Below, in pieces: positions 34,736-37,091 of a stretch of 41,862 nt of DNA (within the stretch, counting starts at the first letter, position 1; each line of letters starts with the position of its first letter). Location: IMG/VR virus record IMGVR_UViG_3300045051_000115, positions 1 through 41,862 of that record; one strand, given 5' to 3'. The notes beneath the pieces were generated by a model, which did no database searches, was not told the DNA's origin, and saw nothing but the letters and a program-made list of their open reading frames with translations. The stretch is from a virus. The position numbers were made by a program, and so were the translations under genes.

Positions 34736-35202
34736 GCGTCGTCGCCGGTAGTGAACCGAGCATCGCCCCCGAGGGCGTTGACCAGTTCGATAAATTTCAA
34801 CTGCGCCAGCTCGCGCGCCGTTCCTGCGAAGCGCCAGCCGGCCTTTTTGGCCTCGCGCGCCGCAAACTGCCCGAAGACCTGGCCGATCATGTCGGGCGTA
34901 ATGAGCCGGCGTCGTATGCCGATCAGATCGGACGACTTGAGGACGGAATTGATCGCGCCGGAATCGTTCGCCAGGCCGAAGCGGATCGGCACGCCCCGCG
35001 CATCGGGCAGTACGCCGACGTTGTTGCGCCAGAGTCGGTCGCCTTGCTTGCTCCAATCGACGCGCAACTGCGACTGTATGGCGGCCTCGCTCGCGCCGGG
35101 CGTGGCGGACGGCTCGGTCGGTGCGTCGGCCAGCATCAGGGCGCGCAGGTCGTCCAGGGCTCCCGCGGACACGCCCCAGCGTTGCGCCCATCGGTTAAGC
35201 AC
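34732..35202 (-). CDS. VRR-NUC nuclease
   Basis: 156 residues from GTG 35202. Residues about 45-150 hold the VRR-NUC form of the PD-(D/E)XK fold: EAAIQSQLRVDWSKQG, then SSDLIGIRRR and a C-terminal helix pair (REAKKAGWRFAGTARELAQL, KFIELVNALGGDARF). The family is found with phage helicases and is thought to be structure-selective, for example on branched DNA. It sits between the GIY-YIG gene and the membrane protein in the replication operon, matching the common phage trio of helicase, VRR-NUC and primase. Confidence 0.85.
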   Translation of the reverse strand: MLNRWAQRWGVSAGALDDLRALMLADAPTEPSATPGASEAAIQSQLRVDWSKQGDRLWRNNVGVLPDARGVPIRFGLANDSGAINSVLKSSDLIGIRRRLITPDMIGQVFGQFAAREAKKAGWRFAGTARELAQLKFIELVNALGGDARFTTGDDA

Positions 35203-35923
35203 GACGCGCCCTCACGGCTTCCGTCCGGCAGGTGTTGGAGCAGTACTTCCCCCGCCCCCTCGCCGCCTCCGACAGTTTTACGTCAAAGGATTTTTCGCAC
35301 CACAAGCACGTCGCGGGGGTCTTCTTCGAGGTCGCGGCGCCTTGGCATTTATTCGAGCAATAGACCCCCTCCCCTCGGCCAGCGTTACCCCGAGTCACTT
35401 TAAACAGCGCTCCGCAGGCGTTGCATACACGGTCGACGCGGCTCACTTTTGCGGCGTCGCAACAGACCTTCGAGCAGTACTTCGCTTTCCCTTTCGCCAG
35501 GTCGCTAGGCTTTGCATCGAAACTCTTGCCGCAGTGCTGACACGGGCGGGGTTTTCTGGTTCTAAGGTAGGGGCGCTCTTTTTGGGCCAGGCCAGCCGCG
35601 GACATTTTCGCGCGTGATTCGGGCGAATGCTTATGACCGGTAAGGCCGTCTCCTCCGATGGCCAAGTTGTACCCCTCCGGCGCTCGCGTCCCGTGCTCGA
35701 AGATCGCGAGGGTTTCCAAAGTGCACAGCTCGTTCCAGTCGTCGGACTCGGCGAGGATCGTCAGTACGGCATCCGACTTCCCGTATTTTTTAAAGGCTTT
35801 CCCGAGCGGCGTTTTGGCTCCGGGGGCGCTGTGCTTTTTCCAGCGAGACGCCGCGGACACGGACGAAATGCCGATGTAGCTTTTCCCGCTCGTCTTAAAC
35901 GTGATTTTATAGAGTTGCCCCAT
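35195..35923 (-). CDS. GIY-YIG nuclease with three tandem zinc-finger modules
   Basis: 242 residues from ATG 35923, with GGAGAGGG upstream; the 22 residues before it look non-coding. The GIY-YIG domain covers about 1-90 (LYKITFKTSGKSYIGISSV, TLETLAIFEHGTRAPEGYNL). A NUMOD3-type segment follows (GHKHSPESRAKMSAAGLAQK). Three zinc modules then repeat, each C-x2-C-x3F...YCS-x3-C: CQHCGKSF, CNACGALF, CLWCEKSF. This is the build of a homing endonuclease (nuclease plus DNA-reading modules) standing free between host genes. No intron is visible around it. Confidence 0.85.
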   Translation of the reverse strand: MGQLYKITFKTSGKSYIGISSVSAASRWKKHSAPGAKTPLGKAFKKYGKSDAVLTILAESDDWNELCTLETLAIFEHGTRAPEGYNLAIGGDGLTGHKHSPESRAKMSAAGLAQKERPYLRTRKPRPCQHCGKSFDAKPSDLAKGKAKYCSKVCCDAAKVSRVDRVCNACGALFKVTRGNAGRGEGVYCSNKCQGAATSKKTPATCLWCEKSFDVKLSEAARGRGKYCSNTCRTEAVRARRA

Positions 35924-35993
35924 TACGCGGCCCTCTCCAACAACGCTACGGCCAGCGCGGCGGGCGGTATGGCGTGGCGGATGGCCCAAGCGG

Positions 35994-37091
35994 TCAGCAT
36001 GAGAGGTAGGCCCGTATCACTTCGGCCGCGACTTGCGGGACAATGGCGTTGCCGTAGGCGCGCAGGCGTCCCACTCGGCCGGATACCCCATGAGCCAGCG
36101 GGAATGTGCCGGGTTCAACTGGCCGGGCTTTCCCGTCTCGGCAGGGGAGCCAATCACAAGCGCCCCAACTTGACGAGGCAATTGGTCCAATCGACTGCGA
36201 CCGTCCGCTCGTTCCGTCGCCATCCCCGGCGAATCCTTCCAGTCGCGAGCCGAGGGCGTCACCTTGGGTGACGCCCCTTGCGCTTGCATCGGTAGCCCGT
36301 TCCTCGCGTCCGGCGCAAGCTCCCCGCGTTTCTCCGAGTCGTTCGCCCGAGGAGTTGCCCACGATGCAAGGCTCGCGCATTCCGCCAGCCCTGTTTGCCC
36401 GGTGTGGTTCGTACCCGCCGCCGTCCGCCCCGCATGCTCCGCTTCTGCGGATCGAGGCGTCGGCCACGCCGCGAGTTGTGTCGCTTGCCCCAAGTTCAGC
36501 CCGAAGCCGTTCCCGTTCTTGTGCTCCGCCTTCAACCTCTCGCGTCGCGCTTCCCACGTCGAGCCCCCGTCGTTCTGCGGCTCCGCATTTGGAGTCGGCC
36601 ACGAACCACAAGCGCTGTCGGATATGCGGTGCGCCGACGCCCGCAGCAGGGATACCGACCGGCCCGAGGGCGTAGCCGATTCCTTCCATGTCAGCCTGAA
36701 CAAGGTCGAGCCAGCCGTGCCTAATCGCCGCATCAACTTGCTCACCCATGACGACGGGGGGGGCACACTGAGAGATAAGGTGGAACCATGCCGGCCATAG
36801 ATGCCGCTCGTCAGCAACCCCAGCGCCTCGGCCTGCGACGCTGAAAGGTTGGCAGGGGCAAGAGCCTGTCCAAACTGGGCGAGAGTCAGGCCACCCAGCG
36901 AGTCGCAGGGCAACGGACCATCCGCCGATGCCGGCGAAGAAATGGCATTGTGTGAAGCCGCGCAGGTCGTCGGGCCGTACATCCTTAATGCTCCTCTCGT
37001 CTACGACACCCGGCGCGATATGGCCGGCATCGATCAGGTTCCGCAGCCATTGCGCGGCGTAGGGGTCTATCTCGTTGTAATAGGCGGTCAT
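35994..37091 (-). CDS. DNA cytosine-C5 methyltransferase
   Basis: 365 residues. It transfers a methyl group to C5 of cytosine. Motif I is FAGIGG (52-57), motif IV SCPCQPFS with catalytic Cys80, motif VI GEQV (116-119, in place of ENV), motif VIII HIRQRLWFV (Arg158, Arg160), and motif X YGNAIVPQVAAEVI near the end. Residues about 170-310 are the variable recognition part. No restriction partner is next to it; it probably protects the phage from host restriction. ATG 37091 overlaps the helicase stop. Most of the gene is overlapped by another frame of the same strand (36017-36982). A C8 tract lies at 36763-36756. Confidence 0.9.
   Translation of the reverse strand: MTAYYNEIDPYAAQWLRNLIDAGHIAPGVVDERSIKDVRPDDLRGFTQCHFFAGIGGWSVALRLAGWPDSRPVWTGSCPCQPFSVAGRGAGVADERHLWPAWFHLISQCAPPVVMGEQVDAAIRHGWLDLVQADMEGIGYALGPVGIPAAGVGAPHIRQRLWFVADSKCGAAERRGLDVGSATREVEGGAQERERLRAELGASDTTRGVADASIRRSGACGADGGGYEPHRANRAGGMREPCIVGNSSGERLGETRGACAGREERATDASARGVTQGDALGSRLEGFAGDGDGTSGRSQSIGPIASSSWGACDWLPCRDGKARPVEPGTFPLAHGVSGRVGRLRAYGNAIVPQVAAEVIRAYLSC
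36017..36982 (-). CDS. Overprinted conserved-looking protein inside the methyltransferase gene
   Basis: 321 residues in a different frame of the same strand. It has its own Shine-Dalgarno AGAGGAG 8 bases before ATG 36982. The sequence looks like a phage protein I have seen stand alone: LGLLTSGIYGRHGSTLS, GSTLFRLTWKESATPSGRS, repeated WPTP/WATP motifs (SWPTPNAE, AWPTPRSA, SWATPRAN), and an end NPAHSRWLMGYPAEWDACAP. Function unknown; it may act with the methyltransferase. Frame-shadow origin is the alternative, but a strong ribosome site, the absence of stops over 966 bases and recurring motifs argue for a real gene. Confidence 0.65.
   Translation of the reverse strand: MYGPTTCAASHNAISSPASADGPLPCDSLGGLTLAQFGQALAPANLSASQAEALGLLTSGIYGRHGSTLSLSVPPPSSWVSKLMRRLGTAGSTLFRLTWKESATPSGRSVSLLRASAHRISDSACGSWPTPNAEPQNDGGSTWEARRERLKAEHKNGNGFGLNLGQATQLAAWPTPRSAEAEHAGRTAAGTNHTGQTGLAECASLASWATPRANDSEKRGELAPDARNGLPMQAQGASPKVTPSARDWKDSPGMATERADGRSRLDQLPRQVGALVIGSPAETGKPGQLNPAHSRWLMGYPAEWDACAPTATPLSRKSRPK

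Follow-up and report, generated by a model that had tools for sequence, protein, structure and literature searches.

The locus described here raises the question of whether a phage cytosine methyltransferase gene can carry a second conserved protein in another frame of the same strand, and what that protein would do. The gene lies in the window, i.e., the whole stretch of 41,862 nucleotides that was analysed (positions 1 to 41,862 of the IMG/VR virus record IMGVR_UViG_3300045051_000115). The interpretation favoured here, with a probability of about 0.8, is that the two frames encode an obligate alpha/beta C5 methyltransferase, in which beta, the product of the inner frame, would supply the TRD-position region and motif IX.

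The alpha gene is located at 35994–37091 (minus strand, as are all the features given below) and encodes a C5-cytosine DNA methyltransferase of 365 aa with motifs I–VIII and X. Its ATG shares 4 nt with the stop codon of the upstream helicase gene. A reading made from the sequence alone had described a same-strand frame of 321 codons wholly within this gene, and this frame is present in +1 at 36017–36982, starting with ATG, entirely inside the alpha ORF and covering 88% of it. It encodes a protein of 321 aa with W-P-T-P modules and a putative motif IX, and its recognition as an overlapping protein is based on PHROG_1008, on permutation and substitution tests and on its presence in phage records. 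The initiation region of beta reads GAGAGGAG-CATTAAGG-ATG. The Shine-Dalgarno sequence AGAGGAG, also part of the earlier description, was found 8 nt upstream of the ATG (36991–36997), within the alpha codons E32–S34, and the start codon itself (36980–36982) is formed by GAT-GTA of alpha D37–V38.

Along the DNA, motifs I–VIII lie in frame 0, followed by the modules and motif IX in +1 and by motif X, again in frame 0. Motif I (FFAGIGG, 36921–36941), motif IV with the catalytic Cys (PCQPFS, residues 79–84, 36840–36857) and motif VIII (GAPHIRQRL, 36609–36635) of alpha were recognised by sequence and are conserved in the alpha alignment. They are followed by a linker with V-A-D repeats (residues 164–300, 36192–36602), defined by pLDDT and substitution rates and encoded by the same DNA as the beta modules, and by motif X (GNAIVPQ, 36033–36053), recognised by sequence. 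Beta shows a conserved N-terminal element, identified by its conserved columns (residues 77–117, 36632–36754; helix and beta-hairpin GSTLFRLTWK..TPSGR..LRAS), and the recurring W-P/A-T-P motifs of the earlier description, which are at residues 128–131 (W-P-T-P, 36590–36601), 173–176 (W-P-T-P, 36455–36466) and 208–211 (W-A-T-P, 36350–36361). Each of these motifs overlies a V-A-D/V-G-N motif of the alpha frame. The candidate motif IX of beta, QLNPAHSRWLMGYPAEWDA (residues 288–306, 36065–36121), was located by matrix scan and hhalign.

The N-terminal motif order of alpha looks permuted, with a II/III-like stretch (YYNEIDPYAAQWL...VDERSIKDV) before motif I (FFAGIGG) within residues 1–57 (36921–37091). 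The structural alignment of alpha with M.HhaI begins at M.HhaI residue 34, and the distant methyltransferases of the overlapping type have the usual N-terminal order. Directly downstream of alpha, a GIY-YIG nuclease with a NUMOD3 motif was detected by Pfam at 35195–35944, probably a homing endonuclease. No partner nuclease was recognisable by Pfam among the neighbours (GIY-YIG/NUMOD3 downstream, helicase upstream), a search in which type II nucleases often give no match.

Alpha was compared with known cytosine methyltransferases. Against Pfam PF00145 it scored 47 bits (gathering threshold 22) over positions 66–160 of the 324 of the profile only, whereas a canonical enzyme fills positions 5–323, and against PHROG_363 the E value was 6e-85. 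The alpha profile matches M.HhaI at 71–175 only. M.HhaI was also the best PDB match (Z 13.3) of the AlphaFold model, which shows a well-formed large domain, disorder at about residues 201–300 (pLDDT about 35) and, beyond motif X, a folded helix at the C-terminus. The median score of the motif-IX matrix in alpha was −5.9 bits. Taken together, the end of the PF00145 match at 160, the matrix, the model and the limits of the M.HhaI match identify the missing part as the small domain, that is, the TRD and motif IX; alpha is without both.

Beta matched PHROG_1008 with an E value of 2.5e-27 (beta 7–312 on positions 11–286 of 329 of the profile) and had no match in Pfam and NCBIfam. Its C-terminal end, quoted in the earlier description and present in the protein, is the motif-IX-like sequence LNPAHSRWLMGYP, to be compared with RRLTPxECExLMGWPxxxT of canonical phage enzymes. 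With a matrix built from 13 canonical motif-IX sequences, the best site was the C-terminal motif-IX position in 133 of 145 beta proteins, and the median score was 4.6 bits in beta vs −6.4 in shuffled beta; a direct profile comparison of beta with canonical motif IX, taken alone, gives a weak match (P = 0.014). The C-terminus of beta resembles a motif-IX segment at the level of sequence. The AlphaFold model of beta was poor (pLDDT 60, pTM 0.32), residues 77–117 being its best-predicted part. A Foldseek search with this low-confidence model gave nothing in the PDB at E<0.001, and neither the beta sequence nor the beta profile matched PDB sequences. The element at residues 77–117, which is absent from single-chain methyltransferases, is proposed as a possible docking element on alpha.

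Single-chain enzymes of actinophages carry, in one frame, motifs I–VIII, one to five LLPTPxxxD modules, ..FPEWMMGWPAGWVT as motif IX and GNGVxPQ as motif X. Their module/IX segment is similar to beta and collinear with it over beta 128–309 (hhalign with the beta profile, Prob 97.1, E 4.8e-11). They differ from the present locus in that a single frame and a single chain hold all the motifs, and in the absence of the N-terminal beta element; besides, their genes generally have no significant +1 ORF and none that is strongly selected. In mycobacteriophages, the overlapping form (L414) and single-chain forms (L462, L444) were found between flanks 93–96% identical; one form can thus take the place of the other at the same locus. 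The simplest reading of these sequences is that alpha and beta together would correspond to the actinophage single chain.

Since actinophages encode a homologue of the C-terminal part of beta in the methyltransferase frame itself, the overprinted look of beta is limited to the N-terminal ~125 residues. The proposal of gene birth made in the sequence-only reading is thus at most half right: the N-terminus of beta, which shares its DNA with the catalytic motifs of alpha and is without a single-chain counterpart, is the only part that would fit it. In the middle segment, the passenger looks like the alpha linker, rich in V-A-D repeats.

Whether the open +1 frame exceeds chance was determined by synonymous-codon permutation within each alpha gene, which keeps the alpha protein and its codon use. 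For the gene of the window, permutations averaged 5.0 stops in the beta frame, with a probability of no stop of 0.001. Eighty viral loci (locus GC 0.41 to 0.68) were then gathered by alpha similarity alone, ignoring the beta frame, and in all of them an open +1 frame, always in the same phase, spans almost the entire overlap. Among 72 distinct loci, including that of the window, 305.6 stops were expected in +1 by permutation vs 0 observed. The segment tested in this count was the open segment itself, and the count was for that reason repeated over a fixed one (codon 46 to end −14): +1 was open in 75 of the 80 loci, with 7 stops vs 1076 in +2. The beta translations scored at least 119 bits against beta of the window (median 152), permuted genes averaging 38 bits, and no permutation reached the real score in any of the 71 loci compared (71/71). 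Alpha motifs of the V-A-D and VGRVADGVP types yield W-P-T-P and WLMGFP in +1 through the genetic code alone, so part of the similarity between beta proteins is expected; that the similarity is a mere shadow of the V-A-D repeats was rejected by the synonymous permutation test. In AT-rich phages (L101, L113, L120 and others, locus GC 0.41), the methyltransferase gene has a GC of 0.54–0.55, perhaps as a side effect of double coding.

Substitution rates were obtained from 22 independent close pairs. By alpha codon position they were.134/.074/.144 in the overlap vs.067/.056/.230 outside it in the same gene. Changes per opportunity were.170 at sites synonymous in alpha and nonsynonymous in beta,.144 at the reverse sites,.080 at sites constrained in both frames and.48 at sites neutral in both, which is not the pattern of synonymous sites supporting the methyltransferase frame only. 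By segments, the values for alpha-nonsynonymous/beta-synonymous, beta-nonsynonymous/alpha-synonymous and neutral sites were.061,.210 and.723 in the N part, with motifs I–VIII (alpha strict, beta moderate),.329,.132 and.402 in the middle part, where the disordered alpha linker is nearly unconstrained in its own frame and beta is constrained, and.089,.129 and.255 in the C part (both constrained); these ratios are approximate, since few changes fall into the neutral class (34, 17 and 9, respectively). Purifying selection, tested both in the close pairs as a whole and per segment, acts in both frames, with alpha dominating motifs I–VIII, beta the middle part, and both the C-terminus.

The initiation signals of beta are also under selection, both the Shine-Dalgarno sequence and the start codon. 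Among 126 representatives, the Arg codon forming the Shine-Dalgarno sequence is AGG in 37% (8% elsewhere in these genes), the Ser codon is AGY in 72% (background 45%) and the Asp codon forming the start is GAT in 86% (background 36%), the beta ATG being at the exact same position in 91. The statement that two conserved proteins are encoded by the same DNA is therefore upheld by selection on both frames, on the Shine-Dalgarno sequence and on the start.

With respect to distribution, beta was found by tblastn in 210 phage records, the carriers including epsilon15, N15 and K1 phages, and the same overlap is present in all 80 prophage loci from bacterial genomes. A further 185 loci were obtained with distant methyltransferases as baits, taken from phages of Lacticaseibacillus, Bacteroides and Mycobacterium. 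The longest +1 frame exceeded permutations at P<0.01 in 145 of them, vs none of the 185 for the +2 frame, and 154 gave a match of the beta profile to their +1 frame at E<1e-5. Close relatives are frequent among these loci, so the counts do not stand for independent events. This +1-only enrichment holds down to a GC of about 0.4, and the non-carriers among the far loci are mostly other methyltransferase types. In phages of Bacillota, Bacteroidota and mycobacteria, too, the pair occurs in the same phase, there with distant methyltransferases. Double coding is old and widespread, not recent.

Beta overlaps a methyltransferase in every carrier examined (80 beta-selected, 80 methyltransferase-selected and 80 prophage loci, and most of the 185 far loci). 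The earlier description of its end as one of stand-alone phage proteins was not supported. A search for stand-alone homologues of the 321-residue protein in phage records, plasmids, viral contigs and genome contigs found none; the exceptions without overlap are single-chain enzymes, and the seemingly stand-alone betas are from records in which only the +1 frame is annotated (e.g., Salmonella phage W5_chr3, Cronobacter phage JC01, Acidovorax phage Alfacinha3).

Annotation and integrity of the two frames vary among the loci. Both are annotated in three Kagunavirus records (K1ind2, K1G and fKuEco01). In L256 (1405–2609), L168 (1217–2397) and L171 (1349–2460), the beta frame is annotated, once as 'cytosine-specific methyltransferase', and the true methyltransferase frame is not. 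A single mid-gene frame change breaks both proteins of Krischvirus LF73P4 (L170, 1826–2682), placing the N-part of beta and the C-part of alpha in one frame. The methyltransferase frame has an internal stop and the beta frame is intact in L181, L223, L236 and L013, by decay or sequencing error. The beta N-terminus is shortened in some members (phage N15, vequintavirus pangalan). In L047 (2973–5010), L064 (2934–4371) and L066 (2949–4335), the beta frame lacks a stop of its own and continues in frame into the next gene; fusion with this gene was rejected, as it has its own candidate start, and the three cases, being run-ons, were set aside as evidence. The beta profile missed the +1 frames of L430, L434 and L311, which are very long or full, carry TP motifs and in some cases end in a motif-IX-like sequence; the family is thus wider than the profile.

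Other explanations of the +1 frame were considered. We regard it as unlikely that beta is a real overprinted protein that acts alone, for instance in an anti-restriction or regulatory role, and is merely tied to the methyltransferase gene. Such independence would agree with its N-terminal half, which has no counterpart in single-chain methyltransferases, and with the failure of any PDB fold or sequence match to tie it to a known protein, but beta never occurs apart from the methyltransferase in the loci examined, its modules and motif IX occur inside single-chain enzymes, the two architectures swap at one locus, and alpha is without motif IX.

Less probable still, and hardly to be expected, is that programmed ribosomal frameshifting joins motifs I–VIII of alpha to the modules and motif IX of beta in one chain. 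The motif order along the DNA is indeed that of a single-chain enzyme; nevertheless, motif X would need two opposite shifts, beta has its own conserved Shine-Dalgarno sequence and start, and its 125 N-terminal codons, useless to a fusion, are selected (.210 vs neutral.723). Finally, the +1 frame could yield no product and merely reflect the conservation of the methyltransferase together with GC-rich codon use, a reading that would draw on the origin of W-P-T-P and WLMGFP from alpha motifs through the code and on the 38 bits that permuted sequences still average. It is the most improbable of all and already refuted statistically by the depletion of stops, by beta-specific constraint at alpha-synonymous sites, by selection on the Shine-Dalgarno sequence and the start codon, and by the 185 far loci, enriched in +1 and not in +2 down to a GC of about 0.4.

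The obligate alpha/beta enzyme is thus the preferred reading, and the best description of the pair would be an alpha/beta methyltransferase of the M.EcoHK31I type, likened to it by motif layout rather than by sequence comparison. M.EcoHK31I recognises YGGCCR. Its beta subunit is said to be read from a different frame of the alpha gene, an account attributed to Lee, Kam and Shaw (1995), and would in this resemble the +1 beta lying wholly inside alpha here; it is also reportedly shorter than the beta of 321 aa. As a C5 methyltransferase of two polypeptides, M.EcoHK31I carries motifs I–VIII and X on the large subunit, where the TRD has also been reported, and motif IX on the small one (PMC3404938). 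The separation of motif IX from the other motifs is as in the pair described here; however, the TRD-position modules are here in beta, and the present gene is a phage orphan with no obvious partner nuclease. M.AquI, also a C5 methyltransferase on two polypeptides, has motifs IX and X and the distal variable region on its second subunit (PMC3404938), a linear split that differs from the present case, in which motif X remains on alpha. The entries PHROG_1008 and PHROG_31772 ('DNA methyltransferase') and the Kagunavirus 'Mte8-like protein' belong to the same family as beta, but they give a name only and no mechanism, and usually a single one of the two frames is annotated.

In the mechanism proposed for this enzyme, alpha and beta would be translated from one message, alpha from the 4-nt overlap with the helicase stop and beta from its own internal Shine-Dalgarno sequence and ATG. 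Alpha would be the catalytic large domain, with motifs I–VIII, the disordered linker and motif X. Beta would provide the small domain: docking on alpha, perhaps via the N-terminal helix and hairpin (residues 77–117), it would complete the DNA cleft with motif IX and with W-P-T-P modules in the place of the TRD. The earlier suggestion that the two proteins act as a pair is probably right; from the sequences we infer the partnership itself, the binding of the two proteins, the synthesis of both products, the inactivity of alpha alone and the reading of DNA by the modules. A likely use would be the modification of phage DNA against host restriction.

Literature searches gave no description of an overlapping frame in phage cytosine methyltransferases, and no report was found of its wide distribution, of the switching of frame by the modules and motif IX or of the segment-wise split of constraint. 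Beyond the single locus, we consider it rather probable that these pairs form an ancient, phage-wide class of heterodimeric C5 methyltransferases with overprinted catalytic and recognition halves, present in phages of Pseudomonadota, Bacillota, Bacteroidota and Actinomycetota and mostly mis-annotated. The recognition/IX segment would switch frame in this class while the order of motifs on the DNA stays constant, and the weak region of each subunit (the linker of alpha, the N-terminus of beta) would be the passenger of the strong region of the other.

If this is true, hundreds of phage genes annotated as 'DNA methyltransferase' would each be half an enzyme, the other half being an unannotated or mis-named +1 frame, and a cloned alpha alone would wrongly be scored as a dead enzyme. 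The family would also be a well-sampled natural case of nearly full-length double coding on the same strand in DNA phages (over 300 loci), with a measurable split of constraint between the frames. With the actinophages as an internal control, in which both halves are in one frame, the origin and persistence of overlapping genes would become directly testable.
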